NCBI RefSeq assembly: GCF_029910535.1
Contig: NZ_CP069362.1
Coordinates: 186,001 to 250,000, forward strand
Length of the DNA: 64,000 nucleotides
Source: Marinitoga aeolica
GTDB taxonomy: Bacteria > Thermotogota > Thermotogae > Petrotogales > Petrotogaceae
Direction: 5' to 3'
The position numbers and the translations under genes are program-made. The first letter of the stretch is position 1, and every line of letters starts with the position of its first letter. The notes beneath the pieces are model-generated. The model ran no database searches. It was given only the letters and a program-made list of their open reading frames with translations, and had not been told where the DNA came from. Shown piece after piece: positions 14,803 through 63,454 of the stretch.

Positions 14803-14803
14803 T

Positions 14804-19652: not shown

Positions 19653-19665
19653 ACTTTTCCTCCTA

Positions 19666-26962: not shown

Positions 26963-26997
26963 AATAAAAAGGGCGATTTAATCATCGCCCTTTTTTT
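26963..26997. terminator. Bidirectional terminator overlapping the giant-gene stop codon
   Basis: GGGCGAT (26971-26977) pairs with ATCGCCC (26984-26990); a T-run follows on plus and TTTTTATTAA on minus. The TAA stop of the giant gene (26978-26980) lies in the loop. It separates the giant-gene operon from the CRISPR leader. Confidence 0.85.
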
Positions 26998-40865: not shown

Positions 40866-40869
40866 ATTA

Positions 40870-44890: not shown

Positions 44891-44996
44891 TTCATTATAA
44901 GCACATAACTTCAAAAACAAATTTACATTCATAGATACATTTATAAAATTCAACATTTCCTTAGTTTTTTTCCTATTAATAAGTGGAAAGATGTAA

Positions 44997-47900: not shown

Positions 47901-48448
47901 AACGAAGAATACGAAGTTGAAACAATAGAATTTTGAGAGCTTCGTTTCCATACCTTATAGGTAGATTAAAAACAAAAAACAAATAGCAGAGATTTTGAAA
48001 AACAAAATTGGTTTCCATACCTTATAGGTAGATTAAAAACTGAATTTGAAGGAATAGAAATAATGAAAAAGAAAGAAGTTTCCATACCTTATAGGTAGAT
48101 TAAAAACTGGTGGGAATCAACGAAATTATTTATTTTCAAAAGAGCGTTTCCATACCTTATAGGTAGATTAAAAACTTTTGTCATTAAGGACGTTCAGCCA
48201 GCAACATTCATAGGTTTCCATACCTTATAGGTAGATTAAAAACAATAGTAAGAACAAGTGATGAATTAGTAAATAAGTTTTTGTTTCCATACCTTATAGG
48301 TAGATTAAAAACATTGTTTTAGGTAATACATATAAATATAAAGATATTATAAGTTTCCATACCTTATAGGTAGATTAAAAACTTAAAGGTTATGTATGGT
48401 ATGCACATAATATCAATTGTTTCCATACCTTATAGGTAGATTAAAAAC
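44997..48448 (-). CRISPR. CRISPR array 2: 51 repeats, 50 spacers
   Basis: A 30-nt repeat identical to array 1 except one base (CTT instead of CTC on the plus strand). There are fifty full copies from 45066 to 48448 plus a degenerate first copy at 44997-45026 with four mismatches. The leader is at the right end, so transcription is minus. Spacers are 36-41 nt; two neighbouring spacers are identical (46863-46901 and 46932-46970). Five spacers (45233, 45368, 46522, 46660, 46729) translate into overlapping stretches of one protein segment, and one (from 46387) holds a ribosome site and ATG in plus orientation. No spacer shared with array 1 was noticed. Confidence 0.97.
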
Positions 48449-48750
48449 ACGTAGAAATACTGACTATTATTATAACACCTTTTCTTTTCATTTCCTTTAT
48501 CGTGCGGTTTACTAAATATTAAATTCACTAATGAATATATTTTTAGAATTTTTTGTGTTTTCCGGATCCCCCTCATTTTTCTTTAATTTTTATGAATTAA
48601 CCTGGTTGTTACATAGTTACAAAATTGTGATTCACTAATAATAAATATTTTGGATGATTTTTATTTCCCCGGATCTCGGCATATAATTCGTATATCGAAC
48701 TATATTTTATTTAACATTGTTATTTTTTAGTTTAATTTTTGATAATTATT
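48449..48750 (-). promoter_or_regulatory. Leader of CRISPR array 2
   Basis: Near-identical copy of the array 1 leader, with the same TATAAT (48474-48469) about 20 bases before the first repeat on the minus strand. Homology stops where the downstream gene's terminator begins. Confidence 0.9.
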
Positions 48751-48756
48751 TTTTAA

Positions 48757-48783
48757 ATAAAAAAAGGCAGCTTTAAAGCTGCC
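48757..48783 (-). terminator. Terminator of the cmr operon, overlapping the cmr6 stop
   Basis: A perfect palindrome GGCAGCTTTAAAGCTGCC (48766-48783) followed on the minus strand by TTTTTTTAT. The cmr6 TAA (48775-48773) lies in its centre, the same arrangement as at array 1. Confidence 0.88.
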
Positions 48784-49669
48784 CATTTATTTTAAACCTT
48801 CCATATCCCATTGATGTTTTTGCTCCAAGACCATAATATTCTATAAAATTTTTAAAATTGCTTTGTATTTCTTCAACAATGTTATTATTATTTCTTTCTA
48901 TTATTATATCAACTCTAAATTTACCTTTAAATACACTTAAAAAATTTAATGGAACTGGATTATATACATCATTTGGCGGTTGATTTCCGTTATAATATTT
49001 TTGAAAATGTGGTGTTTGATATTCAATTCCTAGTTCAATATCATTTATTGGAACAGCATCTAAAAATGATACTTTACCTTTTTTATCTTCTTCGCCAAAA
49101 ATTTCTTTAATAAATGTTGATTTTTCTGATTCTAAATATTTTCTAAAAGCTCCTTTTATAGTTGTTCCTGGTATAATAGGTAACCCTAAATTTCTACTCC
49201 AATAAAATCCAATCTCATCAATTGAAGGAATACCAGCTCCTACTAAAAATGGTGTTTTTGTATATATTTTATAACTAATAATATCATATCTATTTTTTAA
49301 AGAGCTTATCATATTGTGTCTTATATTTTTTGTTAATTCTATTTTTTTACAAAGATCTTTTATTACTAAATCTTTTAAGATGTTTTTATACCTTTGCTTA
49401 ATATGTTTTTCTAGAACTTTTTCTTTTTCTCCTTTTGCCAAATCCCTTATATCTTTTGTATTATTTAATATAAAAAGAGTATTTATATTTTTTAACTCAT
49501 TTTTATTCTTTTTTATGTTTTTATCTCCAGTATTACCTTTTAATATATTATTTATTTCATTTACAGTTGTGTTATCTTTTTCCATTATTCTTCTTTCACT
49601 AAATACAAATTTATCATAATATAAACTTGAATTTTTTATTTCATTTGGTTGATGTATAAAGTGCTTCAA
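48773..49669 (-). CDS. cmr6: Type III-B CRISPR RAMP protein Cmr6
   Basis: A 298-aa RAMP (Cas7-like) protein that caps the Cmr backbone. The C-terminal half has LGLPIIPGTTIKGAFRKYL, the RAMP loop motif, KGKVSFLDAVPI, TPHFQKYYNG and the glycine-rich end YGLGAKTSMGYGRF, the usual Cmr6 pattern. The N-terminal ~130 residues are charged helices. The start is likely TTG 49669, one base after the cmr5 TGA and downstream of AGGTGGTGAT. It is the last gene of the cmr operon. Confidence 0.92.
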   Translation of the reverse strand: MKHFIHQPNEIKNSSLYYDKFVFSERRIMEKDNTTVNEINNILKGNTGDKNIKKNKNELKNINTLFILNNTKDIRDLAKGEKEKVLEKHIKQRYKNILKDLVIKDLCKKIELTKNIRHNMISSLKNRYDIISYKIYTKTPFLVGAGIPSIDEIGFYWSRNLGLPIIPGTTIKGAFRKYLESEKSTFIKEIFGEEDKKGKVSFLDAVPINDIELGIEYQTPHFQKYYNGNQPPNDVYNPVPLNFLSVFKGKFRVDIIIERNNNNIVEEIQSNFKNFIEYYGLGAKTSMGYGRFKINGQL

Positions 49670-49670
49670 A

Positions 49671-50027
49671 TCAATCACCACCTATAAATATGTCTGCATA
49701 TCTTCTATACCAATTAGTAAATTCTAAAACTCTATCTTGTATTACAGATAAATTTTCTGTATTTTCAAGAAATTCTAATAAGTCATCACCTTGAAAAAGA
49801 TTTTTTTCTTTTAAAAAATGTTGTATATCATCAAAAACTGCCAGATGATGTGTTTTAGCTTTTGCCCTTAAAAAAACTAATGTTCCATATAATCCATTTT
49901 GAATTATCATTGAACCTAACCCTTTAATTAATGATCTATATATTTTTTTATCTTCTTCATTTAATCTATTTGAATTATTTAATACTAAATCTTTAGCTAT
50001 TCTTTTAGTGCTGTTTTCTCTTTTCAT
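49671..50027 (-). CDS. cmr5: Type III-B CRISPR small subunit Cmr5
   Basis: A 118-aa helical protein at the Cmr5 position between cmr4 and cmr6. LVFLRAKAKTHHLAVFDDIQ and MIIQNGLYGTLVFLRAKAK match the conserved core (Gly-Leu-Tyr/hydrophobic pattern) of Cmr5. It lines the Cmr filament along the crRNA. The second of two adjacent ATGs (50027) has better spacing to GAGGTGAA. Confidence 0.92.
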   Translation of the reverse strand: MKRENSTKRIAKDLVLNNSNRLNEEDKKIYRSLIKGLGSMIIQNGLYGTLVFLRAKAKTHHLAVFDDIQHFLKEKNLFQGDDLLEFLENTENLSVIQDRVLEFTNWYRRYADIFIGGD

Positions 50028-50036
50028 CATTTCACC

Positions 50037-50864
50037 TCACATTAATTTTATAAAAGCAAAACCTTTACCAACAGAAACTTTACCACCTACGTTTATATAT
50101 TGATTATCTAAATTATTTGAAACTATATTTATTAATTCATCATTGTTTTTTAATGGTTTGACTATAAAAAACATTATAGAGTCTTGTGGCAAATATTCTT
50201 CATACCATAAAGCACCTGCGTTTACAACACCAGTTTTGCTATCAATTCTTATTCTTGGTAATACTTCAGTAGCATTTTTTACAAAAAACGCAAAATCTTC
50301 ATCTTTTAAGAGTATTGTATTTTCTACTAATACATCTTTTAAATAGTTATCAGGAGCAATATTTTTTATTTTTTCAATTAAATCTTTTAATTTATCTGAT
50401 TTTTCTGGTTCAATTACATATTCTTCAAGATTTACTTTAGTTTCATTAAATGTAGAATATTCCTTATTTTTGTCAATATTATTTAAAAATTCTTCTATTT
50501 TATTTGTCATTTCTTTATTACCAACTACTTCAAAAGCGGTTTTTAATCTTGATAATACTAATGGACATGTTATCCAAATCATACCTCTATTTATACTTCT
50601 TAATGGAAAAAACAATATTTTTGCTTCTGAAAATGTCACATATCCTGGATTTGTTTCTTCATTAGTGTCTGGACGAGAACCAAATACTAATTTTTCATCT
50701 TTTCCAAAATCAATTTCATTTCTTATTGCACCTTTAATACCAGAAATTATAGGAAACCCTGTATGAACTTCTCTTTGTATTGGTTGATCAACTACTCCTA
50801 CATCCATACCCTTACCAGCATGAATTTGTGTAACAGCATATAAAAAACCTATTTTTCCACTCAA
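50037..50864 (-). CDS. cmr4: Type III-B CRISPR backbone RNase Cmr4
   Basis: A 275-aa Cas7-family subunit that forms the backbone and cuts target RNA every six nucleotides. KIGFLYAVTQIHAGKGMDVG carries His15, and Asp26 follows in VVDQPIQREV; both are at the positions reported as active-site residues in P. furiosus Cmr4. GFPIISGIKGAIRNEI is the RAMP loop and GGKVSVGKGFAFIKL the glycine-rich end. The start is TTG 50864 behind TAAGGGGGTTTTTAAA. Confidence 0.95.
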   Translation of the reverse strand: MSGKIGFLYAVTQIHAGKGMDVGVVDQPIQREVHTGFPIISGIKGAIRNEIDFGKDEKLVFGSRPDTNEETNPGYVTFSEAKILFFPLRSINRGMIWITCPLVLSRLKTAFEVVGNKEMTNKIEEFLNNIDKNKEYSTFNETKVNLEEYVIEPEKSDKLKDLIEKIKNIAPDNYLKDVLVENTILLKDEDFAFFVKNATEVLPRIRIDSKTGVVNAGALWYEEYLPQDSIMFFIVKPLKNNDELINIVSNNLDNQYINVGGKVSVGKGFAFIKLM

Positions 50865-50877
50865 TTTAAAAACCCCC

Positions 50878-51849
50878 TTATAATTTTATCTCTATATATT
50901 TTCCAAAATTATATTCGCTAAATTTATCTGTGAAATTATCTTTATACTCATTTTTAAATTCATTATTTATATAATAAACACTTCCAGAAGGTACAACTTT
51001 AAATAATTCTCCAGGCTTTTTGTTTTTTAAATCCCAAAATCCTATGTTTTCTGGTTTGTAATTTGCAATAGCTATAATATTTTCATTTCTTATTGGCAAT
51101 ACTCCATTATCGAAATATGCTGGCGTTAATAATATTAATCCTTTTTCATTATTAGTAATTTTATCAAAAATTGAGGTCTCTATTTCTTTTATTTCTAATT
51201 TAGCTAATTTTCCTTTTGTGCCTAATGTTATATATTCAATTTCATTTAAAATATTTAATTCATCTTTTTCAACAAATAATACAAATCCTGCATTTTCTTT
51301 AAACCTAAAATATGAATATGAATATAACATGCCTTCTTTAGATTTTCTATTTTCTAAAGCTATTCCTATTTTTTCTTCTCTTTCAAATATTTCAGGAATG
51401 GTATCTTCAATTGCAATATTTCCTTTTTTTAATTCTTCTAATTCATTTAATGAAATATATGATTTTTGAGGTTCTTTTAAATTTCTCATAGACTCATATT
51501 TAATTCCATATAATTCTTTACTACTTATTACAAATGAAAAATTACTATCTAATGTACCTTTAAAGTATTCTTTTGTTTCTTCATTTTGTTTAATAATAGC
51601 TGGAATTTTAAAATATATATTTTCATTTACATCAGATAAAAAAGGACCTACAATTTTTAGTTTTTTTGAATTAATTATTTCTTCTATATCTTCTGCTTTT
51701 AAATTATTATTTCTAAAATATGCACCTAATATTGCACCATAAAAGGTTTTTATATTAGGAAATATAGCTTCTTCGGAATGAGAAAACGTTTTTGATTTTC
51801 TGAATCCCACATAATCTATTGGTTTAATAAATAATGTTTTAATCTTCAT
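50878..51849 (-). CDS. cmr3: Type III-B CRISPR RAMP protein Cmr3
   Basis: A 323-aa Cas5-like subunit that holds the crRNA 5' handle together with Cmr2. KIKTLFIKPIDYVGFRKSKT and EAIFPNIKTFYGAILGAYFR fit the conserved Cmr3 N-terminus; the C-terminal PSGSVYYINN is also characteristic. The ATG overlaps the cmr2 end by 11 bases, after GGGAGAATAAAT. Confidence 0.92.
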   Translation of the reverse strand: MKIKTLFIKPIDYVGFRKSKTFSHSEEAIFPNIKTFYGAILGAYFRNNNLKAEDIEEIINSKKLKIVGPFLSDVNENIYFKIPAIIKQNEETKEYFKGTLDSNFSFVISSKELYGIKYESMRNLKEPQKSYISLNELEELKKGNIAIEDTIPEIFEREEKIGIALENRKSKEGMLYSYSYFRFKENAGFVLFVEKDELNILNEIEYITLGTKGKLAKLEIKEIETSIFDKITNNEKGLILLTPAYFDNGVLPIRNENIIAIANYKPENIGFWDLKNKKPGELFKVVPSGSVYYINNEFKNEYKDNFTDKFSEYNFGKYIEIKL

Positions 51850-54157
51850 ATTTATTCTCCCTTCCTGAATATTCTATATTTTCAAGGGTATTAAAATAAT
51901 CTAAAATTTTTTCTTTGTTAAAATTCATATTTTCGTCTAATATAATTTTAATTTCATCTTTTAATTTTTTTAATTGCATTCTTTTTTGTATATATGGAAT
52001 AACTTTATCTCTGAAATCTTTTATTGACATTATTTCATTTCCTAATTCATCTAAACAGAAATTTATATATTCATTTTTTAATCTACTAATTAAATTTTTT
52101 ATGGATTTTTCATTTTCAAAGTTTTCAATAAATTCTTGTGCTTTGGCTAATACATCATATCTTTCAATATCCCAAAAACTTTTTGATTGAGTTACTTGGC
52201 CACTTCTTCTGATGGTTGCTATTGCAAAACTATTTTTTTTCATATTTCCTTCTTCATTTGCTTTTGCTAATTTTTCCATTTCTCTTGCTTTATTTAAAGC
52301 TAGTTTTAGATTAAAATTATGTTTTGAAACTGTGATTCCTGCACTCATTGTTGCTGTTTTTCCCATCATATTGAATATAGGAATATTTTTTAAATAACAC
52401 CAACCATTTTTAAATACATAATCTCCAATATTTACATCACCAATTCCAGAATATACTTTTCTTAATTTATTAGCTGCATTGAATACTTTGTTTGAAGGGA
52501 ATAATGCTAAGACGTCATCACCACCAGCATATATTAATAATCCATCAAATTCTTCAACTATTTTTGGAACAAAGTTTGAAAAGTGATTTAATGTTCTACT
52601 AATCATTCTTTGATATGCCGGAGTTACAAAATGAATTTTATCCAAAATTTCTACATATTCTTTATTTTCTTTTTCTAATTCAGATACGATTTTTGAATGC
52701 AATCTATTTTTTATGGAAGGCCCTAAATTCCCAGAAATCCATTTTCCCATATTGTCCCCATCCATTAATAATACAGCTAAGTTATATTTATCTGCTATTT
52801 TTTCTGTTGATCTAATATCCTTTAATTTATCATATGCTTCTGTATAACCTATTTCTTTTAAATAATGAACGAAAAATCTTTTTATTGCTGATAGTGCAGA
52901 AAGTTTTTCTAATCTTTCACTATTTTCATATATAGTTTTTACTTCTATTAGTGATTTATTATTACCGCTAATATCATCACCATGTTCTTCGCTATTTTCA
53001 TATAATTGAGTAAAATCTCTAGTTGCTTTTCTTAATGCACTTTTTATACCTAATAATTCACTATATACACCATAGAAAGAAATATTTTTTATTGTATATG
53101 TATTTTCTAATTTTTTTATTTCATTATATAATTTCTTTATTTTTTCATCTTTTGTATAATTATAATGATTTTCTATATTTCCTTCTATATCATCTATTTT
53201 TTGTTCAATTATCATTACAGTTGGAAATTGAGATACTTGTTCATCCCATTTATTAAAGTTATTTAATATTGTTATATTATCATCTTTATTTTTTTCTATG
53301 TATGATTTTATAAATTCACTTATTTTTTTCATTTCATTTTTTATTGCAGTATTAATTTCTATTTTTAAATCTTGAACATCTTTTGAAGGTACTATAGCAG
53401 TAAACACATTTGGTAATGAAGCAACTGATGGATCAGCATTTGTTTTTAAGTTTAATCCTAGTTTTTCTAATTCTTTTTTAACGAAATAATTTCCTCTCAT
53501 ATATGGAAAGATAACATTATCGTATCCATATTTTTCACCAATTACTTTTATACCCTGGAATGTTAAATAAGATAATATATAACTTCCCACTTTAAGATCT
53601 ATTGTACTTCTGCCTGCTGCTATAAATTCTTGAACAGGACCTATTGAAACTAATATCAAAGAAAGGTTATTAGACACACTCATTGCTGATGCACTATCTA
53701 AATGATCTATAATAGAATGACTTGGCATTCTTGTGTCTGCTGGTAACATATATGAAATATTTAATAATTCTGGTAATTCCCACCATAATTTATAATATGT
53801 TTTTTTATAATCATTATCTATAAACTTTAACTTTTTTGTTATTTCATCAGAATCTATTTTTCTAACTTCTTTTTTGAATTCTTCATTAAAATAGTCTTCT
53901 AATTTTTCTCCAGTTAAAGGATGAATATATTCAGGATGTAAATTTATGTCTAATGAATATCTTTTAGAAAAATGTTCTTTTTCTTTTGGAAACAATATTC
54001 TATCTGCTGCACTTGATAAATAATCAAAGTTTTTGTTTTTTATATATAATTTGAATTTTCTTAATCTCTCATCAGCAATATTTTCATGGTTGGTAATATT
54101 AATGGCTTTTTCTATAGGATCATGTAATAATGCTATTATTTTATTTTCCCAATTCAC
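51839..54157 (-). CDS. cmr2: Type III-B Cas10/Cmr2, HD plus GGDD cyclase
   Basis: A 772-aa large subunit. N-terminal IIALLHDPIEKAI carries an HD-type motif. The GGDD of LLIYAGGDDVLALF (~residue 543) is intact in the Palm domain and should make cyclic oligoadenylates when target RNA is bound. SHSIIDHLDSASAMS and GPVQEFIAAGRSTIDLKVGS match Cmr2. I chose GTG 54157 because GGGGGTAAAAAA precedes it; an upstream in-frame ATG at 54175 precedes that site. The product links directly to the two CARF proteins in the window (19666-20778 and 63032-63454). Confidence 0.95.
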   Translation of the reverse strand: MNWENKIIALLHDPIEKAINITNHENIADERLRKFKLYIKNKNFDYLSSAADRILFPKEKEHFSKRYSLDINLHPEYIHPLTGEKLEDYFNEEFKKEVRKIDSDEITKKLKFIDNDYKKTYYKLWWELPELLNISYMLPADTRMPSHSIIDHLDSASAMSVSNNLSLILVSIGPVQEFIAAGRSTIDLKVGSYILSYLTFQGIKVIGEKYGYDNVIFPYMRGNYFVKKELEKLGLNLKTNADPSVASLPNVFTAIVPSKDVQDLKIEINTAIKNEMKKISEFIKSYIEKNKDDNITILNNFNKWDEQVSQFPTVMIIEQKIDDIEGNIENHYNYTKDEKIKKLYNEIKKLENTYTIKNISFYGVYSELLGIKSALRKATRDFTQLYENSEEHGDDISGNNKSLIEVKTIYENSERLEKLSALSAIKRFFVHYLKEIGYTEAYDKLKDIRSTEKIADKYNLAVLLMDGDNMGKWISGNLGPSIKNRLHSKIVSELEKENKEYVEILDKIHFVTPAYQRMISRTLNHFSNFVPKIVEEFDGLLIYAGGDDVLALFPSNKVFNAANKLRKVYSGIGDVNIGDYVFKNGWCYLKNIPIFNMMGKTATMSAGITVSKHNFNLKLALNKAREMEKLAKANEEGNMKKNSFAIATIRRSGQVTQSKSFWDIERYDVLAKAQEFIENFENEKSIKNLISRLKNEYINFCLDELGNEIMSIKDFRDKVIPYIQKRMQLKKLKDEIKIILDENMNFNKEKILDYFNTLENIEYSGRENKYED

Positions 54158-54161
54158 TTTT

Positions 54162-55292
54162 TTACCCCCTAACATTATTTTTTAATTCTTCAATTAATTC
54201 ATCATAATTTTCATTCCCTTTTACAAAAATTCTATTTCTACTTTTTTGAAAAATTAATTTAGAATCACTATTTGTTAATCTGCTTTTTAAAACTAAAAAT
54301 CTAATTGTATAGCCACTATTTTTTTTATGAACTGAAATAAAAAGTGGTGAAGCTTTTCTGTCTGTTTCTCTGGGTTTTAATGTATAATTACTACCTCTTA
54401 ACCTTCTATGCTGTCCATCCCATGTTTTATAGTTTATTGGCAATCCTAAAATTGATTGATGAAATATTATGTCTCTTTCACCATTGTTTCTTTCAACTTC
54501 GTGTATAGCACTTGTAAATGAATCTCCACCTTTTCTTCTTAACCTTAATTTTGTTTTTGTATAAATACCCTTTTGATTAAAGTTTCGAGCTGTTCTAAAT
54601 AAATAATTATATACATCTTTGAATGAATTATTATTTTTGTTAATTGAAAAACTTTTATAATAACCCCTGACTAATACCGGATAGTCAGCAACTTCACCAT
54701 TAAATTCTGTAGGGTTTAATTCAAACTTATCATTTGAAAATATTTTTTTGTTTTCTTCATCTAATTTATTCAATATATCATTTAGTGTAATATTAGTTAT
54801 ATTGTTTATCTTAAAACTTCCAAATCCTTTTCTTGATTTAGCACCAAATCCACTTACTAAAGATGTAAGAATTAATAAGTCATTTAATAACTCTTTCACT
54901 TTTTCATCTTTTATTACAAAAATTAATTTAATTTTTGAATTTTCTTTTAAAAATTCCCTATTTTCTACACCATATATACCATATTTATTATACCTACCAG
55001 GTGCGAATTCATCAGTATTTCTGCTTTTTTGTAAATCAATTTCTTCGATAATAACATCAAATGTGGATTTTATTTTAGTTGAACCAAATATTAACTCCTC
55101 TGCTTTTTTCAATCCAATATAATTTTCTTCTCTTCCATCATAATGATGAATATTTAATATTCTTGGTATAACTGCTCTAAACCAAAATCTTAATACTCCT
55201 CTAACACTTTGTGATGTTAATTCGAAAGTACTTCCATTACGGCTTGCAAACATAGGCGAAATAGTTGTTATTTCGTACTCTAATAAATTCAC
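54162..55292 (-). CDS. cmr1: Type III-B CRISPR RAMP protein Cmr1
   Basis: A 376-aa RAMP at the 3' end of the crRNA in Cmr complexes. EITTISPMFASRNGSTFELT, SVRGVLRFWFRAVIPR and EELIFGSTKIKS are the Cmr1 signature, and SGFGAKSRKGFGSFKI is the glycine-rich loop. The GTG start at 55292 follows AGGGGGTAAAAAT. An ATG overlapping it is immediately followed by TGA, a start-stop arrangement that might tune initiation. It is the first gene of the cmr operon. Confidence 0.95.
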   Translation of the reverse strand: MNLLEYEITTISPMFASRNGSTFELTSQSVRGVLRFWFRAVIPRILNIHHYDGREENYIGLKKAEELIFGSTKIKSTFDVIIEEIDLQKSRNTDEFAPGRYNKYGIYGVENREFLKENSKIKLIFVIKDEKVKELLNDLLILTSLVSGFGAKSRKGFGSFKINNITNITLNDILNKLDEENKKIFSNDKFELNPTEFNGEVADYPVLVRGYYKSFSINKNNNSFKDVYNYLFRTARNFNQKGIYTKTKLRLRRKGGDSFTSAIHEVERNNGERDIIFHQSILGLPINYKTWDGQHRRLRGSNYTLKPRETDRKASPLFISVHKKNSGYTIRFLVLKSRLTNSDSKLIFQKSRNRIFVKGNENYDELIEELKNNVRG

Positions 55293-55335
55293 ATTTTTAC
55301 CCCCTATTGTTAAAATTTAAATTTATATACTATAC

Positions 55336-55365
55336 ATTATACCATATTTATAATTATTTTGTAAA
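55336..55365 (-). promoter_or_regulatory. Sigma-A-type promoter of the cmr operon
   Basis: TTTACA (55365-55360) and TATAAT (55341-55336) separated by 18 bp on the minus strand, about 45 bp before the cmr1 start. The -35 lies within the last codons of the upstream pseudokinase gene. The cmr operon therefore has a housekeeping-type promoter, unlike the box-containing signalling genes. Confidence 0.65.
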
Positions 55366-56244
55366 TTCTCTACATTTTTCTTTAATATCTTCAAATTTTT
55401 CCATTCTATTTACAGGATTTGGATCAATTAAATCTAAAATAAATTGCATTACATTTTGACTTTCAAAATAATTTAAATAATATTTTGCATTATATATTAA
55501 ATCACCAGTAATTTCATTATTTATATATGCTCCTTTCGTAACAATATCAAAAAGCAATATACCAATTTGATATGAAACTATAGTTTTTGCTTTTATTTTT
55601 TTATTTCCTTTAGATTTTATGTATTCAATTAGTTCAGGTGGTGTATATCTTTTATTTATTATGCTTCCATATAAATTTTCATTTGTTATTACTTTATCAT
55701 CAATGTATCCATTAATATGTCTGCTTATATATCTTAACCCTTTAATTTTTAATATATCATCTTTTTGAACAATTATATGTTCTGGAAATATTCCTAAATG
55801 AATCAAATTTTTATTATATAAATCTCTTTGAAAGTCTATTAATGATGGAATTATACTTCTCATAATTCTTTTTAATGCTATTTCATCTTGATCTTTTTTA
55901 GTATTTGAATTATATTTTACAAAAAAATTGTTTTTTATAGCATCTTTCATTATTACTCCATCAAAATAATCCATATATACTATATTATTTTTAAAATCTA
56001 CTATTTCTGGTAATTGATTGCTGGAAGCTAAATTATTTACTTTTATTATTCTTTCTAATATTTTTTGTCTTTTTATTTTTTTTTCTTCATTATCTGAAAC
56101 AGGCAAAATATAACCTAATACAATATTATCTTTTAATACATCTTTTGTATAAAATCTAATTTTAAATGTTTCACTAAAACTATTTATTTTTGAACTAATG
56201 ATACTTTCTTTGTTAGAATAATTTTTGTATTTCTTCCATTCCAA
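55354..56244 (-). CDS. Protein-kinase-like pseudokinase
   Basis: A 296-aa protein with the outline of a Hanks-type kinase. In the C-lobe NLIHLGIFPEHIIVQKDDIL stands where HRDxKPxN belongs; the catalytic Asp and metal Asn are replaced. The DFG position reads IKGLRYISR. RYTPPELIEYIK corresponds to the APE region, and SYQIGILLFDIVTKG to the DxYSLGxxLxELxTG helix. It should be inactive as a kinase and may be a scaffold or substrate sensor for the active kinase at 61833. TTG 56244 is the likely start behind GGAGATGATAT; an in-frame ATG at 56268 precedes that site. Confidence 0.7.
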   Translation of the reverse strand: MEWKKYKNYSNKESIISSKINSFSETFKIRFYTKDVLKDNIVLGYILPVSDNEEKKIKRQKILERIIKVNNLASSNQLPEIVDFKNNIVYMDYFDGVIMKDAIKNNFFVKYNSNTKKDQDEIALKRIMRSIIPSLIDFQRDLYNKNLIHLGIFPEHIIVQKDDILKIKGLRYISRHINGYIDDKVITNENLYGSIINKRYTPPELIEYIKSKGNKKIKAKTIVSYQIGILLFDIVTKGAYINNEITGDLIYNAKYYLNYFESQNVMQFILDLIDPNPVNRMEKFEDIKEKCREFTK

Positions 56245-56257
56245 AATATCATCTCCT

Positions 56258-57049
56258 TTATATTTCATTTATGTCTCTTACATCTATTCCCAAACCTCTA
56301 GCTTTTAACTTTAAATTTTTATCTGAAGTTATAAATATACAATCTTTTTCTTCCAATGCTACTGAAAGAATTATATTATCTGCTTTACTCATATTTAATT
56401 CTGGTGGTAAATTATTTACATTACCTAATTTAACTTCAATCATATTATTTTTTGTGTATTTGTCTAATTTTTTATGAATCTTGCTAATATTATGTTGCAA
56501 ATCTTTTTTTCTTTTTAAATTGTCTAATTCTTCTAATATTTCATATGGTATTATTATTCTGTTTTTTTTAGATATTAATTTTTCTATTATTCCAATATCG
56601 TTTATTAAAACATTTGTATCTAAAATTATTTTTTTATTTTCTATAGTAATTTCATCAGGTATGTCATTTCCTTTGCTTTCTCTATTATTTATTATGATTT
56701 TTATTCCAAGCATTCTATTAATTATTATTTTGTCACCATTATTTAATTCATATCTTTTATCTTTAGTCATTATTTTTTTATTAAATATTACTTCATTATT
56801 TGATATATCCTCTATATAATATTTTCCTTCCAATCTTAATATTCTTAATATTTTTCTTGAAAAACTTTTTTTAGAATCAAATTCTGAAATATCAATATCA
56901 GATTCTACACTTCTTCCTATAATCGCTTCATCATATTTTAATTCTTTTGTCAAAACTATTTTGTTTTTTAAATAAAACTCTAATTTCAATTTATCTTCAT
57001 TTTCTTCTTCAATATCAAATAAATTTTCAAAAATTTCAGCATATTTCAA
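56258..57049 (-). CDS. FHA domain fused to PIN-type ribonuclease
   Basis: A 263-aa protein. FHA domain at ~20-120: EAIIGRSVESDIDIS with the GR and FSRKI motifs and a C-terminal GDKIIINRMLGIKII. PIN domain at ~135-263: IILDTNVLINDIG (first Asp), IIPYEILEELDNLKRK (Glu), SKADNIILSVALEE (Asp) and CIFITSDKNLKLKARGLG (Asp), so all four acidic metal ligands are present. FHA binds phospho-threonine, so this looks like an RNase recruited or gated by the nearby kinase. TTG 57049 follows GGAGGTGAAAAGA. A terminator T-run abuts that ribosome site directly, leaving no room for a promoter. Confidence 0.85.
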   Translation of the reverse strand: MKYAEIFENLFDIEEENEDKLKLEFYLKNKIVLTKELKYDEAIIGRSVESDIDISEFDSKKSFSRKILRILRLEGKYYIEDISNNEVIFNKKIMTKDKRYELNNGDKIIINRMLGIKIIINNRESKGNDIPDEITIENKKIILDTNVLINDIGIIEKLISKKNRIIIPYEILEELDNLKRKKDLQHNISKIHKKLDKYTKNNMIEVKLGNVNNLPPELNMSKADNIILSVALEEKDCIFITSDKNLKLKARGLGIDVRDINEI

Positions 57050-57063
57050 TCTTTTCACCTCCA

Positions 57064-57086
57064 AAAAAGCCCCGCTAAATGCGGGG
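57064..57086 (-). terminator. Terminator directly abutting the FHA-PIN ribosome site
   Basis: CCCCGC (57086 side GCGGGG) forms a 6-bp GC stem around ATTTA, and TTTTTT follows on the minus strand, then immediately GGAGGTG. It ends the vWA transcript, and FHA-PIN would be made only by read-through. It may act as an attenuator. Confidence 0.75.
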
Positions 57087-57091
57087 TAAGG

Positions 57092-58423
57092 TTAAAATAT
57101 ATCATTATATAATGAATCTAAATCTTCTTCATCTGTTATAAATCCTTCATCATTTATTTTTGTAGAGGAATTTGAAGCAGCTATTAATAAATCATTTGGT
57201 ATATTTTTGGTTATTATATATTGTTCTTTTATTTTTCTATAATTTTCTGCTATTTCATCTTCACCTATTTCTTCAGCTCTTTCTATTATTTCATCTAATG
57301 TTTTTAATACTCCTCTATCATTATTTTTATTAATATATTCATTTAAATAATCATCTAATCTTTTTATATTACATCTTTGAACTATATCTTTTACACTTTG
57401 ATATTCATAATTTGATTTTTCATAATCACTTGTCATATCTATTACAATATCTACATTTTGTTCTTTTCTTTCGTTTGTTGCTGGTATATGATAGCTTAAT
57501 TTTGCTGACATTACTCTAAATTTTCCATCATATTTATTTCTTGCTGAAGGTATAGCTATTTCAAATACATATTGATAGAATCTATTATTTTCAATATCAT
57601 CTAATTTTATTTTATATATTCTTTCTTTATCTAATTCCATTTTTCCATAATATGTTGTTTCAGGTACTGCTCTATAATAATCATTAACTCTAACTTTTTC
57701 TGATACTTTTATTTCTATTTCAATTTCATTTACTACAACTGATTTAGATCTTTTTAATGCGCTTTCAAATACTTGTATTGATTGTGAAGCATTTTTTATC
57801 CAATCTGTTGTACCTCTTCCTGGTTTTACGATTTTTTCAATAAATGAGTAATTAAAATCATTACCTATTCCAAGTGCTGTTATACTTATATTTTCTTCTG
57901 CTATTAAAGCACCTTCTCTTATTCCATCTTCTTCTCTATCTTCTACAGGTAATCCATCTGTTAAAAATATAATTTTTTTTGTATTTCCTGTGTTTATTTT
58001 CAATATTTCTCTTGCTTTAGCCAAAGCTGCTGAAATATTTGTTGCTCCAGATTCACTATATGCTTTTTCAACTGCATCATTAAATTGTTCTTCTGTTAAA
58101 TTTTTTGCATGATCCAATATTACAACAGGATATGAATGATATATTATTAAACTTATACTATCTTCTGGAGTTAAAAATTGATATAAGTTTTTAGTAGATT
58201 TTACAGCTGTTTCTAATTTTGTTATTTTACCTTCAATATATTCATTCATTGAACCTGATACATCCAAAACAATACAGAAATCTGTTCCTTTTACTGCATA
58301 TTCTTCTTTTCTTAATTCTTCTCCAGGTTTTACTTCTAATAATAAATTTACATATGTATCTTCTTTTGAGCCAGAATAAACATAAGGTTTATCAAAGTTA
58401 TAAGATAGTACTAATTCTTTCAA
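57092..58423 (-). CDS. vWA-domain protein (TerY/YfbK-like)
   Basis: A 443-aa protein. The vWA domain at ~45-230 has a complete MIDAS: DVSGS in CIVLDVSGSMNEYI, Thr in SGATNISAAL, and Asp in IFLTDGLPVED. The C-terminal half is a beta-rich region (VNEIEIEIKVSEKVRVNDYY; RVMSAKLSYHIPATNERKE) and a helical tail. vWA proteins of this kind occur with PP2C phosphatases and Ser/Thr kinases in TerY-type triads, and all three classes are present here. TTG 58423 follows GGGAGGTATTAAC. It has its own ATGTCT box and ends at its own terminator. Confidence 0.88.
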   Translation of the reverse strand: MKELVLSYNFDKPYVYSGSKEDTYVNLLLEVKPGEELRKEEYAVKGTDFCIVLDVSGSMNEYIEGKITKLETAVKSTKNLYQFLTPEDSISLIIYHSYPVVILDHAKNLTEEQFNDAVEKAYSESGATNISAALAKAREILKINTGNTKKIIFLTDGLPVEDREEDGIREGALIAEENISITALGIGNDFNYSFIEKIVKPGRGTTDWIKNASQSIQVFESALKRSKSVVVNEIEIEIKVSEKVRVNDYYRAVPETTYYGKMELDKERIYKIKLDDIENNRFYQYVFEIAIPSARNKYDGKFRVMSAKLSYHIPATNERKEQNVDIVIDMTSDYEKSNYEYQSVKDIVQRCNIKRLDDYLNEYINKNNDRGVLKTLDEIIERAEEIGEDEIAENYRKIKEQYIITKNIPNDLLIAASNSSTKINDEGFITDEEDLDSLYNDIF

Positions 58424-58448
58424 GTTAATACCTCCCTTTATTTTTGAT

Positions 58449-58471
58449 TTTTCAAATTATCAACAGACATT
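58449..58471 (-). promoter_or_regulatory. Shared box (ATGTCTGTTGATAATTTG) upstream of vWA gene
   Basis: Copy of the conserved box, 26 bp before the TTG start. It directly follows the T-run of the preceding terminator (TTTTTTAATGTCTG). GATAAT inside could serve as a -10. Confidence 0.65.
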
Positions 58472-58495
58472 AAAAAAGGCCAGGTTTTCCTGGCC
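58472..58495 (-). terminator. Terminator of the coiled-coil membrane protein gene
   Basis: GGCCAGG / CCTGGCC 7-bp stem with an AAAA loop on the minus strand and TTTTTT following. It separates the gene ending at 58501 from the vWA unit. Confidence 0.9.
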
Positions 58496-58500
58496 ATACA

Positions 58501-59319
58501 TTATTCACCATCAAATAATTTATCAATTTCTTCTTTTATATTTGTTTTTGTTTCAACTTCATCTAGTTCTTTTGTTAGTTTATTTATATCTTCTAATCCT
58601 TCAGAATTCATAGTTTCACTTTTTGCATCATATTTCATTATTTCTTCATCTAATGCTTTTTCTATTTCTTCACCTGTTTTTGTATATTTTCCTGTCATAA
58701 AATCTTCTTCAAATCCTTCTAATTCTTTTTTCATATCTAATTTCATTTTCTTTGCAGTAACTCTTGCTAATCTTGCTTTTTCTTCTTCAATTTTCGTTCT
58801 ATATTCTTTTAATAATTTATTTGCATTATTTAATGATTCAGTTATTTCTCCGTATATTTCTTTTTTTAATTCAAGTTGTTTGCTTAAGTTTTCATCAATT
58901 TCATTTTTCAATATTTCTGCTTTTTCTTTTAATTCATTTAATTTATATTTATTTGTACCAATTTCAACTTCATTTTTTCCTTTATTTTTAGCTGATCTGT
59001 AAATTTCTGCTAATTTATTTATTTTTTCTTCATAATCTTTTATTTTTGATTCTATATCTTCTATTTCTTTTTCTAGATTCATTTTTTTTACTTTTACTTC
59101 TGCAATTTTTTCTAATTTACTATTATATTCATTTTCCATATCTTCTATTTCTTTTTTTATTAGTTCAATTGAGCTTTCAGCTGTATTACTTTTTTCAATT
59201 TTTTCTCTTTGTGTATCTACTTTTGCCATAAATCCTTTTGTTGAGTCTGGAAATACTATTGCTAAAACCACAAAAACAATTACAACTCCTACAATTAAAG
59301 ATATTAATTTTCCACTCAT
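58501..59319 (-). CDS. Membrane-anchored coiled-coil protein
   Basis: A 272-aa protein with one N-terminal membrane helix (LISLIVGVVIVFVVLAIVF) and then ~190 residues of coiled coil (IELIKKEIEDMENEYNSKLE; RTKIEEEKARLARVTAKKMK). It resembles PspA/IM30-type membrane-stress proteins in general shape only; the family is not certain. ATG 59319 follows GGGAGGTTAGAGC. It has its own box and terminator, so it is separately transcribed in the signalling cluster. Confidence 0.75.
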   Translation of the reverse strand: MSGKLISLIVGVVIVFVVLAIVFPDSTKGFMAKVDTQREKIEKSNTAESSIELIKKEIEDMENEYNSKLEKIAEVKVKKMNLEKEIEDIESKIKDYEEKINKLAEIYRSAKNKGKNEVEIGTNKYKLNELKEKAEILKNEIDENLSKQLELKKEIYGEITESLNNANKLLKEYRTKIEEEKARLARVTAKKMKLDMKKELEGFEEDFMTGKYTKTGEEIEKALDEEIMKYDAKSETMNSEGLEDINKLTKELDEVETKTNIKEEIDKLFDGE

Positions 59320-59348
59320 GCTCTAACCTCCCATTAATAAATTTGTTT

Positions 59349-59370
59349 TTCAAATTATAAATAGACATTT
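59349..59370 (-). promoter_or_regulatory. Shared box (ATGTCTATTTATAATTTG) upstream of coiled-coil gene
   Basis: Copy of the conserved box 30 bp before the ATG. Here the inner hexamer is a perfect TATAAT, supporting a promoter -10 reading of the box. Confidence 0.65.
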
Positions 59371-59385
59371 GAAATTTTTAGAATT

Positions 59386-59409
59386 AATCAGGGAGAATAC
59401 TCCCTGATT
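59386..59409 (-). terminator. Hairpin after the 47-aa gene
   Basis: AATCAGGGAG / CTCCCTGATT 10-bp stem around a 4-nt loop. The following minus-strand sequence is AT-rich without a clean U-run, so termination may be partial. Confidence 0.6.
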
Positions 59410-59552
59410 TAAATTAAAAGCCCAATAATTGCTAATATTATTGCCAAAGGCCATGTTCCAGATACTGCTGTTCCAAACATTGCAACTCCTATATGAGATC
59501 CTATAATACGACCTAAAATAGCTAATCCAACACTTTGTATTAACTTTCTCAT
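59409..59552 (-). CDS. Small glycine-rich membrane protein (47 aa)
   Basis: The sequence reads MRKLIQSVGLAILGRIIGSH then IGVAMFGTAVSGTWPLAIIL and a hydrophobic end. There are two short membrane segments with a glycine-zipper look. ATG 59552 follows AAGGGAGGTAGAAAA, and the shared box lies 31 bp upstream, so it is a real transcription unit. Function unknown; a phage-shock, pore-forming or anchor role is possible. Confidence 0.7.
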   Translation of the reverse strand: MRKLIQSVGLAILGRIIGSHIGVAMFGTAVSGTWPLAIILAIIGLLI

Positions 59553-59582
59553 TTTTCTACCTCCCTTTTAACAATTTTGTTT

Positions 59583-59604
59583 TTCAAATTATTATTAGAC
59601 ATTT
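59583..59604 (-). promoter_or_regulatory. Shared box (ATGTCTAATAATAATTTG) upstream of the 47-aa gene
   Basis: Copy of the conserved box, directly following the terminator stem at 59605-59634 on the minus strand. Confidence 0.65.
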
Positions 59605-59634
59605 AAAAATGGTCAGAGAAACCTGACCATTTTT
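59605..59634 (-). terminator. Terminator between two box copies
   Basis: AAAAATGGTCAG (59605-59616) pairs with CTGACCATTTTT (59623-59634), a 12-bp stem whose minus-strand 3' arm ends in TTTTT. It ends either read-through from the FHA gene or a short RNA started at the 59681 box. Confidence 0.8.
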
Positions 59635-59680
59635 ATAATTTATATTTAGTTTTTGAATATGAAATTTTAATATTTATTTA

Positions 59681-59703
59681 TTCTAAGTTATTTATAGACA
59701 TTT
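59681..59703 (-). promoter_or_regulatory. Shared box (ATGTCTATAAATAACTTA) without a following gene
   Basis: Copy of the conserved box, slightly diverged (TTAGAA instead of TTGAAA). Only ~75 bp of non-coding sequence separates it from the terminator at 59634, so it may drive a small RNA, or be a vestige of a lost gene. Confidence 0.5.
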
Positions 59704-59734
59704 AATTTTGTCATTAAATATACATTTTTAGTGA

Positions 59735-60310
59735 TTACATAAATGAAACTTGAATTCCTATTTTTTTGGATATAATTATTTTATCAGCATCATTTAATTT
59801 TATTTTTTCTCCAATTTTTACAATATTTTGATTTAAATATATAGGTGTTTTTTTTGTCAATCTTAATAAATAATATTCATTATTTTCTCTTATTATTTTT
59901 ATATGTCTTTTGCTTATTTCTTTTTCTAAATCAAAATCTTCTAAATCTATATCTGTTTCTGGATTTTTTCTCCCAATTAATATTTCGTCATATAAAAAAT
60001 TTTTTTCTATTAATTCTTTCTTACTAGAATATACTTTTATTATTATTCCAGCTGTTTCTGCAATATTTTCTATTTTTTCAGTTTTTTCTATTTCTGCATC
60101 ATCTAAATTTTTATTAATTTCATAATCGCCAATAGTTTCATCTAATTGATTATTTTCATGTACTACATTTAATACTTTTAAAAATTCATTCATTTCTTTT
60201 TCTATTTTTTTTTCAGTTTGTTGCTCTTGAATAATATATCCACCACACTCACAAAATTCTTCTGGATAGTCGTCTTCATATTCTCTTTGGCAATTTAAAC
60301 ATTTTTTCAT
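59735..60310 (-). CDS. Zinc-ribbon plus FHA-domain protein
   Basis: A 191-aa protein. An N-terminal four-cysteine zinc ribbon (KCLNCQREY and EFCECGGYI), an acidic linker, then an FHA domain at ~95-191 with DEILIGRKNPETDIDLEDFD, EISKRHIKII (the conserved SxxH) and a C-terminal GEKIKLNDADKIIISKKIG. It should bind phospho-threonine on the kinase or its substrates. The ATG overlaps the PP2C stop (TAATG) behind GGAGG, so kinase, phosphatase and this FHA protein form one operon. Confidence 0.88.
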   Translation of the reverse strand: MKKCLNCQREYEDDYPEEFCECGGYIIQEQQTEKKIEKEMNEFLKVLNVVHENNQLDETIGDYEINKNLDDAEIEKTEKIENIAETAGIIIKVYSSKKELIEKNFLYDEILIGRKNPETDIDLEDFDLEKEISKRHIKIIRENNEYYLLRLTKKTPIYLNQNIVKIGEKIKLNDADKIIISKKIGIQVSFM

Positions 60311-61821
60311 TATTTTTCCTCCTTTTTATATATAGGATTAAATAAATGTAATGTTATATTATCCGCTGCTTCATTGGATTCTAATTCACAAATTATTTTT
60401 ATTGCTGCTACTTTCAATTTATTATATTTTGAATATATTTTAAAAAAATCTTCTTTAAAAAAATCTTCTTTATTGTCTTCTTCTCCTTTCCAATAGTCCA
60501 ATACTCCATCAGAACTTACAAGTACTATTTCATCATCTAATAATTTTGTTTCTGAATAGAAATAATTGATCTTTTCTGGTACAATTTCATTTTCTATTTG
60601 TTTATATTTCCCTATATATTCTGTTAATGATGATTCTTTACCTTTTAAATTTCTTTTATTAATTAATTTTTCTCTTTTTATGTTATGTTCTATATTCATT
60701 TTTAAGATATAATCTTTATTCATTATAAATATATTTGAATCTCCTACTGATGCAATGTATAAGTTATCATTGTATAATATTACTAATGCTAAAGTACTAG
60801 CCATAATATCAGTTGCATTAAATTCTTTTTTTAATTCTTTTGCTTTAATCAATATTTTTTCATTAGATTCTTTTAATATATCTTCAATAAATCTTTTTAC
60901 TGTTTCAGTGTTAATATCTTTTTCTTTTAATTCATCCCATTTATTTAAAATAATTTCTTTAACTATATTTGAAGCTATTTTTCCATTTCCCACTTTAGCT
61001 GTTGATACACCATCCATAACTGCAAATATAGCTTTTTCATTATATACATCTTTAAACCACGAATCTTGATTTACATCATCTAAAAAATCATCTTCTTCCT
61101 TTAATTTTTTACTTCCTTCAGAACTTTTAGTTGCTCTTGCTATTTTTTCAATTAATTTTTTTTGTGTTTTTCTTCTTTTTCTTCTTTCCAAAGTTTTTAA
61201 AAATATTTTTTTAGATTGCTTGATTGAATAATCGTTATATAATGACTTTTTAAACCAATATTGTAAATCATATTCTCCCATTTCTTTTAATTTTTCTTTT
61301 ACGTAATATTTTTTTTCCTTTATTTTTCCAATAGATATATAATCATCACCAAATAATAATCTTGCAAATATTTCTGCTATCAATGTTGAATTATTTAAAT
61401 CAAATTTAGAAATTTTTGATCTTATTGATATTGGCATATTAAATTTTTTTAATTCAACTATATCATATTCGCTAAATATTGGGTAATATAGAAATATATA
61501 TGGTTTTAACTCTTGATCAAAATATATAGATTTTGGATCGATTATAAAAAACTTATAACCGTTTTCTTCTGTTTTTTCCATTAATTCTAATAAATTCAAA
61601 GTCATATTTATTACACTTTCAATATCATTATTTACTTCTTTAAAAGGTTTTAATTTTTCATCAAATAAAAATAAAACTTCATTATTCTCAAAATTTTTTA
61701 ATGGATATTCTATATTTTCTAAATTTGGTTTTTCTTTAAATATTTTGAAATCTGTTATCCATTCAACATTGTTAAATATTAAAATATCCCTTTTTTCTAT
61801 TCTTGATTCAATATATGCCAA
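60310..61821 (-). CDS. PP2C-type protein phosphatase with kinase-like N-terminal region
   Basis: A 503-aa protein. Residues ~235-500 are a PP2C phosphatase: VNQDSWF, IFAVMDGVSTAKVGNGKIAS, YIASVGDSNIFIM, VLVSSDGVLDYW and AADNITLHLF, with all metal-binding Asp residues in place. Residues ~1-215 look like a decayed kinase lobe: GYKFFIIDPKSIYFDQELKP at the catalytic-loop position and NSTLIAEIFARLLFGDDY at the later helix. The start is TTG 61821 behind GGAGGGATTAAT, 11 bp after the kinase stop. It should reverse the phosphorylation made by the adjacent kinase. Confidence 0.9.
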   Translation of the reverse strand: MAYIESRIEKRDILIFNNVEWITDFKIFKEKPNLENIEYPLKNFENNEVLFLFDEKLKPFKEVNNDIESVINMTLNLLELMEKTEENGYKFFIIDPKSIYFDQELKPYIFLYYPIFSEYDIVELKKFNMPISIRSKISKFDLNNSTLIAEIFARLLFGDDYISIGKIKEKKYYVKEKLKEMGEYDLQYWFKKSLYNDYSIKQSKKIFLKTLERRKRRKTQKKLIEKIARATKSSEGSKKLKEEDDFLDDVNQDSWFKDVYNEKAIFAVMDGVSTAKVGNGKIASNIVKEIILNKWDELKEKDINTETVKRFIEDILKESNEKILIKAKELKKEFNATDIMASTLALVILYNDNLYIASVGDSNIFIMNKDYILKMNIEHNIKREKLINKRNLKGKESSLTEYIGKYKQIENEIVPEKINYFYSETKLLDDEIVLVSSDGVLDYWKGEEDNKEDFFKEDFFKIYSKYNKLKVAAIKIICELESNEAADNITLHLFNPIYKKEEK

Positions 61822-61832
61822 ATTAATCCCTC

Positions 61833-63020
61833 CTATATCGATGAATTTATATGATATGCACTGCTTACATTTCTTAATGCTATAAAAACATCATTTAGCA
61901 TTTCCTTACAATCAAGATATCTTTTATTTATATCTTTTTGTGATGCCTTTTCTATTATTTTTACTATACTTTGATGTATATTTAACTTTGAATAATCTAA
62001 ATTTGCAATCCCTTTTTCATTTGTATAATTTGATAGATTTTCTTCAGTAAATAAGTCATACATCATCACACCTAATGTATATATATCTGCTCTTCCATCA
62101 AAAGGTAAATTCCTATCTTTTATTTCTGGCGCCATATAACCTGGTGTTCCAACTCCTCTGTTTATAAATTTTCCATTAGGATTTATTATAGCAACTCCTC
62201 CTAAATCTATTAATGTAAATGTGTTATTAGGGCTTGCTATTATATTGTCTGGTTTTAAATCTTGATATACAAATTTTGCTCCTTTGCTATTTCCTTTATG
62301 CATATCTTTGAATGTTTTTAATAATTGTTTGGCTAATTTTAATACGAACATTTGCCAATAAGGAGATTCCCTATCTATATTGTTATTTTTTATATAATCA
62401 GATATAGTATCTCCATCAATATATTGCATTACAATATATGGTTCATCATATGCTAGTTCATTTAAAAATTGTTTTCCAGGAATAATTTTTCCGTCAGGCC
62501 AGTTTATTGTTGGTGCGTACCCTTTTACGTAATTACATAGTACAGGTATATTTGGAATATTCATTTTTTTTAATGCTAATAATATAGCTTTTTCTATTTC
62601 AATATCTTTTCTTCTTTTTTCTATTATTTCCTTACTATCTAAATTCGTTCTTTTTATTTTGTTTTTATAATTATTAGATTTTATTAATACTTTTCTACCA
62701 AATAAAACTTTATCTTCAGCTATTAATATCAATCCAAATCCGCTATTTGCACTTAATATATCTTGAACAATATATCTACCAGAAATCTCAGCAGGAACTA
62801 AAAATTCTTTTCCATTTTTTATTATTTTTAATACATTTTCAGCTACTTGTTCTTTTTTGTTTTCATTAACATTCTCATTGAATTCTTGATTATTTTCATT
62901 AATATTTGTTGTTATTACATTGTTATTTTTTTCTGATTCTCTTTCATTATTTTCTATAACTTTTTTTTCGTTATTCATTACTGATTTATTATAATTTAAT
63001 AGTTTTTTCAAAAATTCCAC
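61833..63020 (-). CDS. Hanks-type Ser/Thr protein kinase
   Basis: A 395-aa protein. Residues ~15-65 are a low-complexity Asn/Glu linker; the kinase domain spans ~80-395. RKVLIKSNNYK carries the ATP-binding Lys, YQDLKPDNIIAS is the catalytic loop (Tyr-Gln-Asp for HRD), FTLIDLGGV replaces DFG with DLG, and GTPGYMAPEIKDR and DIYTLGVMMYDLF complete the pattern. It should be active and, with no membrane segment, cytoplasmic. GTG 63020 follows GGAGGTGATTAA, 11 bp after the CARF gene stop, so a cyclic-oligoadenylate sensor and a kinase are co-translated. Confidence 0.92.
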   Translation of the reverse strand: MEFLKKLLNYNKSVMNNEKKVIENNERESEKNNNVITTNINENNQEFNENVNENKKEQVAENVLKIIKNGKEFLVPAEISGRYIVQDILSANSGFGLILIAEDKVLFGRKVLIKSNNYKNKIKRTNLDSKEIIEKRRKDIEIEKAILLALKKMNIPNIPVLCNYVKGYAPTINWPDGKIIPGKQFLNELAYDEPYIVMQYIDGDTISDYIKNNNIDRESPYWQMFVLKLAKQLLKTFKDMHKGNSKGAKFVYQDLKPDNIIASPNNTFTLIDLGGVAIINPNGKFINRGVGTPGYMAPEIKDRNLPFDGRADIYTLGVMMYDLFTEENLSNYTNEKGIANLDYSKLNIHQSIVKIIEKASQKDINKRYLDCKEMLNDVFIALRNVSSAYHINSSI

Positions 63021-63031
63021 TTAATCACCTC

Positions 63032-63454
63032 CTATTTTACTTCTATCCATTCTCCTATTACATATGGATTCTCTTTTTGTTGAAATATATCTCTTTTATC
63101 TACTGCAAAAAAGCTTTTATTTTTCACATTAACTATTTCCTTTATTTTTCCAATTACGTATTGTAAAAATGATGTTCCACCACTTAAATTAAAATATATT
63201 TCTTCAGCATCATTTAAATATTTTTCTACATTTTTTATTTTTTCATCAATTTCTTCAAATCCATAAAAAGGATTATTAAATTTTATTACTTTTATATTTT
63301 TTAAATTAAAATCTGATTTTTCAGCAATTTCACTTATTTTTTCTGCACCTTTTTCTGATGTAACAATAATACATAGATCTGGATTTGTGCTTTTTAAAGC
63401 TGTATAAACAACTCCTGGTGATGTGCCTAATGGTGTAATTAAAATTTTACTCAT
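63032..63454 (-). CDS. Stand-alone CARF-domain protein
   Basis: A 140-aa protein consisting only of a CARF-type Rossmann fold: ILITPLGTSPGVVYTALKST (first strand and ligand loop), LCIIVTSEKGAEKISEIAE, IYFNLSGGTSFLQYVIGKI with the SGGT ligand motif, and a short C-terminal strand. There is no HEPN, nuclease or HTH domain. It could be a sensor subunit for the downstream kinase, or a ring nuclease that degrades cyclic oligoadenylate. ATG 63454 follows GAGGAGGCTAGAGT, and the shared box lies just upstream. It lies between cas2 and the kinase operon. Confidence 0.82.
   Translation of the reverse strand: MSKILITPLGTSPGVVYTALKSTNPDLCIIVTSEKGAEKISEIAEKSDFNLKNIKVIKFNNPFYGFEEIDEKIKNVEKYLNDAEEIYFNLSGGTSFLQYVIGKIKEIVNVKNKSFFAVDKRDIFQQKENPYVIGEWIEVK

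Follow-up and report, generated by a model that had tools for sequence, protein, structure and literature searches.

An FHA–PIN protein in a single reading frame beside type III-B CRISPR genes

Type III CRISPR effectors, as surveyed in PMC11229360, are switched by the direct binding of a nucleotide signal or act downstream of proteases that are so switched. A gene of Marinitoga aeolica raises the question of whether such an output might instead be governed by protein phosphorylation. It lies in the 64,000-nt stretch of DNA analysed here (the window; contig NZ_CP069362.1, positions 186,001 to 250,000), and an earlier note made from the sequence alone had read its product as a phosphothreonine-binding FHA domain joined to a PIN nuclease.

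The minus-strand open frame (57064–56258) encodes 268 amino acids. Of the two candidate starts, the TTG at 57049 that the earlier note had used (263 aa) is preferred, as it has GGAGGTG a few bases before it; residue numbers nevertheless follow the 268-aa frame. Pfam profiles recovered both the FHA and the PIN domain in this single frame (Table 1), in agreement with the earlier reading. In G041, a sister genome within the genus, the counterpart shares 79% amino acid identity, likewise in one frame, and the comparison indicated purifying selection (dN 0.111, dS 0.733, dN/dS about 0.15) with constraint on both the FHA half (0.102/0.899, about 0.11) and the PIN half (0.106/0.676). Given this identity and the constraint on both halves, FHA-PIN is, judged by sequence comparison, a single conserved frame and not a chance join.

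The gene is directly linked to type III-B Cmr genes, within a locus comprising Cas10/Cmr2, Cmr1-6, a CRISPR array and cas1-cas2. Read 5′ to 3′ on the minus strand, the order is cas2-cas1-cas2 (beside the module, outside the window), CARF protein, kinase, PP2C, zinc-ribbon FHA protein, coiled-coil protein, VWA protein, FHA-PIN, pseudokinase, Cmr1-6 and the CRISPR array.

Table 1. Features of the FHA-PIN locus, with positions in the window.
Feature	Position	Strand	Evidence
Stand-alone CARF protein, 140 aa	63032–63454	−	PADLOC CARF2 (CARF_HEPN_CARF, second CARF) E 5e-42; DUF1887 protein 8bao E 1.7e-4
Ser/Thr (Hanks-type) kinase	61833–63020	−	Pfam Pkinase E 6.4e-24; YQDLKPDN and DLG motifs intact
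PP2C-type phosphatase, N-terminal extension	60310–61821	−	Pfam PP2C_2 E 2.6e-11; Stp1 family E 1.4e-19
Zinc-ribbon + FHA protein	59735–60310	−	Pfam FHA E 2.9e-9
Coiled-coil protein, N-terminal hydrophobic segment, genus-specific	58501–59319	−
VWA protein	57092–58423	−	Pfam VWA_2 E 2.4e-15; MIDAS residues DxSxS...T...D by alignment
Intrinsic-terminator-like hairpin between VWA and FHA-PIN	57070–57086	−	Just upstream of FHA-PIN ribosome-binding site
FHA-PIN gene	56258–57049	−	TTG start, 263 aa, frame open to 57064; Pfam FHA + PIN_4; kept in G041 at 79%
FHA domain, aa 48-115	56718–56923	−	Pfam E 1.6e-8; GR, SR, N kept; SxxH His = Ile; model pLDDT 84
PIN domain, aa 146-265	56268–56629	−	Pfam PIN_4 E 2.6e-21; D149, E179, D229, D248
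Pseudokinase	55354–56268	−	Homology to module pseudokinases; Pfam gives no significant match
Cmr1	54162–55292	−	TIGR01894 E 7.1e-18
Cas10/Cmr2	51839–54175	−	TIGR02577 E 7.2e-58; HD and GGDD motifs present
Cmr3, Cmr4, Cmr5, Cmr6	48773–51849	−	Cmr5 TIGR01881 E 3e-16; other three named by order and similarity among Cmr loci
CRISPR array, about 50 repeats	44990–48450		Repeat GTTTCCATACCTTATAGGTAGATTAAAAAC

Other genes in and near the locus were recorded alongside. A small PrimPol-like protein (44029–44592, minus strand, 187 aa) adjoins the CRISPR array. Further along the window (13411–20781, minus strand), a gene for a CARF protein (Cas_APE2256, 371 aa) comes before one for a 1356-aa protein that combines the RNA polymerase domains Rpb2 and Rpb1, and two additional genes complete the set. 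It resembles the 'RNAPol + CARF' system UAS-58 (PMC10910872), and G044 and G052 have genes similar in size and order near Cmr. Outside the window, Csm1-type Cas10 and Cas6 genes mark another type III locus (L093:2590-9377), roughly 20 kb upstream of the Cmr operon, and an 804-aa CARF-CYTH-HD protein (L042:6228-8642; PADLOC E 5.9e-210) is encoded upstream of cas1, adjoining a macro-domain and DarT pair. A 563-aa protein with a CARF-like N-terminus and a STIV B116-like C-terminus (L088:3244-4935; E 5.8e-34) adjoins the Cmr genes of G042.

The operon encodes a kinase, a phosphatase and a stand-alone CARF protein

A Ser/Thr kinase and a PP2C-type phosphatase, both with catalytic motifs intact, share the operon with FHA-PIN, which bears out the kinase and phosphatase cluster described in the earlier note. 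The CARF protein is, by profile similarity, a detached relative of the second CARF in CARF-HEPN-CARF proteins. FHA-PIN itself sits between VWA and Cmr1, and its stop is overlapped by 11 nt by the start of the pseudokinase gene; the module pseudokinases lack HRD, DFG and the ATP-binding Lys. No MoxR gene was found within 48773–63454. In another operon, beyond the CRISPR array from the module (26978–43976, minus strand), lies a bpMoxR gene (42128–43105, E 1.2e-56) of the MoxR-vWA-beta-propeller ternary systems, together with a gene for a 2853-aa protein that has no Pfam match.

The reading that we favour, and regard as evenly poised between right and wrong, is that FHA-PIN would be a ribonuclease effector ending a phosphorylation relay attached to the type III-B (Cmr) system. 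The Cmr complex would recognise target RNA and Cas10 would make cyclic oligoadenylate (cOA), which the CARF protein beside the kinase would sense or degrade, thereby tuning the kinase. The latter would phosphorylate threonines on module partners (pseudokinase, VWA or Cmr), from which PP2C would strip the phosphate, and docking of the FHA domain on phosphothreonine would recruit or unlock the PIN nuclease, resulting in RNA cleavage. Gene content and order, the residues for each activity and the linkage of the module to CRISPR can be read from the DNA; we infer RNA cleavage, phosphopeptide binding, the direction of the switch, the substrate and the cOA step. An FHA-gated enzyme has a precedent in Bdellovibrio DgcB, a diguanylate cyclase. 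The FHA domain of DgcB binds the protein's own phosphorylated N-terminal peptide (title of PDB entry 6hc1).

The earlier note had placed phosphorylation in the stead of direct cOA binding. For the polypeptide itself this holds, as Pfam and PADLOC profiles detected neither a CARF nor a SAVED domain in FHA-PIN. For the system it is less likely to hold: since a stand-alone CARF protein adjoins the kinase and Cas10 keeps its GGDD motif, phosphorylation probably acts downstream of cOA rather than instead of it. Such a cOA-to-kinase link would not be general, because this CARF protein is absent from the module loci of other genera.

The terminator-like hairpin and its T-run are kept in G041 with an altered loop, and this position directly before the ribosome-binding site suggests low or attenuated production of FHA-PIN. 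A low level would also suit a different role, which we consider unlikely, namely that of a local RNA-processing or recruitment factor rather than a cell-wide effector. Here, FHA would tether PIN to a phosphorylated Cmr complex or VWA scaffold, so as to trim crRNA or target RNA or to tune the operon mRNA. The placement of the gene with the pseudokinase and Cmr1, after the conserved hairpin, fits such a role. So does the nearest match to the PIN domain in a PDB sequence search, SMG6, which works inside a complex. Yet the genome has a Cas6 gene (L093) and thus needs no PIN for crRNA processing, and Cmr loci elsewhere do without FHA-PIN. The same gene led us to reject the idea that PIN stands in for Cas6.

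Both domains retain the residues for their predicted activities

The relay reading calls for an FHA domain that binds phosphopeptide, and the earlier note had named absence of the phosphopeptide-binding Arg and Ser as an outcome that would speak against it. Both are present (R51 and S69), within a set of phosphothreonine-contact residues comprising G50-R51, S69-R70 and N90. The FHA family profile aligned over the Ser region with the phosphopeptide-binding FHA of Chk2, and an alignment of ten module FHAs revealed GR and Ser to be invariant. AlphaFold returned a poor model of full-length FHA-PIN from the single sequence (pLDDT 40), so that the PIN fold is assigned from profiles; FHA alone was modelled well, as a beta-sandwich FHA fold whose best structural matches (Z about 15) were the phosphopeptide-binding FHAs of Ki67, Rad53, EmbR, DgcB and GarA.

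One feature counts against the relay: the usual structural His of SxxH is replaced by Ile72. Two kinds of FHA occur in the module: one accompanies a zinc ribbon and has SxxH, the other shows SRK[A/I] together with an FE[ND]LF motif at the N-terminus. The domain of FHA-PIN belongs to the second kind, and the like FHAs of G066, G075 and G076 carry Ala at the His position. Loss of this His would be expected if the domain had given up phosphopeptide binding and served protein docking only, with PIN constitutively active or dead. The contact positions Arg, Ser, Arg and Asn are kept, however, and the FHA half evolves under the constraint given above, making this a rather improbable explanation.

Consistent with the earlier note, the PIN domain has all four acidic residues: D149 (LDTN), E179 (EELD), D229 (ADN) and D248 (TSDKN). 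Three of them (D149, E179, D248) align with the SMG6/EST1A PIN nuclease, and the four are common to stand-alone PIN and PhoH2-type PIN domains. Profile and acidic residues together place the domain in PIN_4, of the SMG6/PhoH clade, and predict it to be an RNase.

PIN is a candidate late addition to an older module

Across 103 Thermotogota genomes, the module VWA occurred in eight and the module PP2C in seven, in every case in a CRISPR locus. Six module loci adjoin Cmr genes, while the two on short MAG contigs adjoin cas2-cas1 and a fragment with weak similarity to Cas10. The module is missing from most Cmr loci, given that Cmr2 exceeds the family cut-off in 34 of these genomes. The search for FHA-PIN near type III loci that the earlier note had proposed succeeded in G000 (the present genome), G041 and G044 and nowhere else in the phylum, with intact copies confined to G000 and G041, that is, to one genus. 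Because module copies in other genera have no PIN, the description of RNA cleavage as the natural output of such a cluster was too general.

FHAs of the FE[ND]LF kind stand bare in G075 and G076 and are fused to the pseudokinase in G066. From these arrangements in other genera, the PIN domain appears to be a late addition, most simply made within one genus to a pre-existing FHA partner of the pseudokinase. In an FHA tree, the grouping of FHA-PIN with FHAs from the other pseudokinase pairs has weak support; the common FE[ND]LF motif and the lost His are, at the level of sequence, the better arguments for it.

Beyond the phylum, FHA-PIN was found neither in plasmids, where matches were to PIN only, nor in viral contigs, nor in 339 genomes of the Pseudanabaena phylum, where matches spanned the PIN part only, mostly in PhoH-sized frames. 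Searches of 400 genomes of the Anaerolineae phylum and 149 of another group also gave none, a silence that proves little as these searches lacked a positive control.

A comparison within the genus bears on what the module does. G042 lacks it and has a CARF protein at its Cmr locus instead, which is consistent with the module filling an effector slot. It is not a simple replacement for CARF effectors, since a CARF protein accompanies Cmr at two further module loci.

G044 harbours a degraded copy. The FHA-PIN start is cut off at a contig edge, with unrelated upstream sequence that by inspection looks like an insertion element, and the coiled-coil gene, read by eye, is broken. Kinase and PP2C were found nowhere in this assembly, though the FHA-PIN and VWA frames remain, which, like the lost His, is evidence against the phosphorylation relay. 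The pseudokinase frame of G044 is still open. This bears on a further possibility, that FHA-PIN is a toxin-like RNase held inactive by the pseudokinase and freed when the module is disturbed, for instance by a phage blocking the kinase or phosphatase. Overlap of the two genes, the frequency of PIN domains among toxins and a closely related PIN that stands alone near CRISPR arrays in G052 are in its favour. However, G044 lost the FHA-PIN start while keeping its pseudokinase, and other genera keep the pseudokinase in the module without any PIN; we deem the toxin reading rather improbable.

The PIN gene of G052 is directly preceded by a member of a small protein family (83-86 aa; L042:5050-5301 and L035:9359-9619) found in six of the 103 genomes, mostly adjoining CRISPR-type genes. 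The homologous orf83 of the present genome (G000 251053-251301) was dropped as a candidate antitoxin, as the family adjoins CRISPR-type genes without PIN in G053 and G054.

Relation to known systems

CRISPR-linked vWA, kinase and phosphatase genes are already known, as are FHA-PIN combinations in plants and vWA conflict systems. FLSHclust (PMC10910872) placed vWA, kinase and phosphatase genes near CRISPR loci (UAS-7, -87, -91, -100, -129, -139, -149 and -155), as here, but reported them as associations only and, in its main text, without FHA; the present locus may be among the systems of its supplements. In the vWA-MoxR-VMAP ternary conflict systems of Kaur et al. 2020 (PMC7159879), the vWA components may carry PIN and FHA on the same polypeptide, and a GAP1-N2-linked set has a catalytically active kinase, PP2C and stand-alone vWA as neighbours. 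By contrast, FHA-PIN is separate from the vWA protein, its operon has no MoxR and its partner is type III-B CRISPR.

Csm6/Csx1 and the other CARF effectors resemble FHA-PIN, a predicted RNase output of a type III system, yet all of these sense cOA in cis through CARF. Fusions of CARF to PIN, and one CARF protein that has a kinase domain, were described by Makarova et al. 2014 (PMC4012209). The closest PINs are those of PhoH2 and stand-alone PIN_4 RNases (about 32-43% identity, same acidic residues); unlike PhoH2, FHA-PIN has no ATPase and lacks the PhoH2 PIN hairpin insert. Arabidopsis AtPS1 and plant PSL (PMC2581889, PMC3071787) likewise join an N-terminal FHA to a C-terminal PINc of the SMG6/PhoH subfamily, with a role in RNA decay proposed by their authors. 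As published, these plant proteins differ in their long linker (1477 aa in AtPS1), meiotic role and reportedly conserved FHA His, and the plant and bacterial fusions are likely independent.

In the main texts of open-access papers, to which the search was confined, we found no FHA-PIN reported from a type III locus, and none of those published from 2022 on combined CARF, type III, protein kinase and FHA. In the 2024 survey of type III effectors (PMC11229360), the main text contains neither 'FHA' nor 'PIN domain' nor 'phosphatase'.

Implications for type III CRISPR immunity

Tentatively, and with some doubt, it is possible that in certain type III-B systems a reversible circuit of Ser/Thr phosphorylation (CARF, kinase, pseudokinase, PP2C, FHA, VWA) carries the cOA alarm to phospho-reading effectors that can be swapped, FHA-PIN being one. 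If such a kinase/phosphatase relay exists, it would be reversible, and through it the response could be amplified, reset and directed to several outputs. In one genus, PIN seems to have joined an FHA-pseudokinase pair that was already there, so that like modules with and without PIN can be compared cleanly for the part that phosphorylation plays in CRISPR immunity. If the relay is real, the CRISPR alarm would be passed on by protein phosphorylation, as a kinase cascade in CRISPR immunity.
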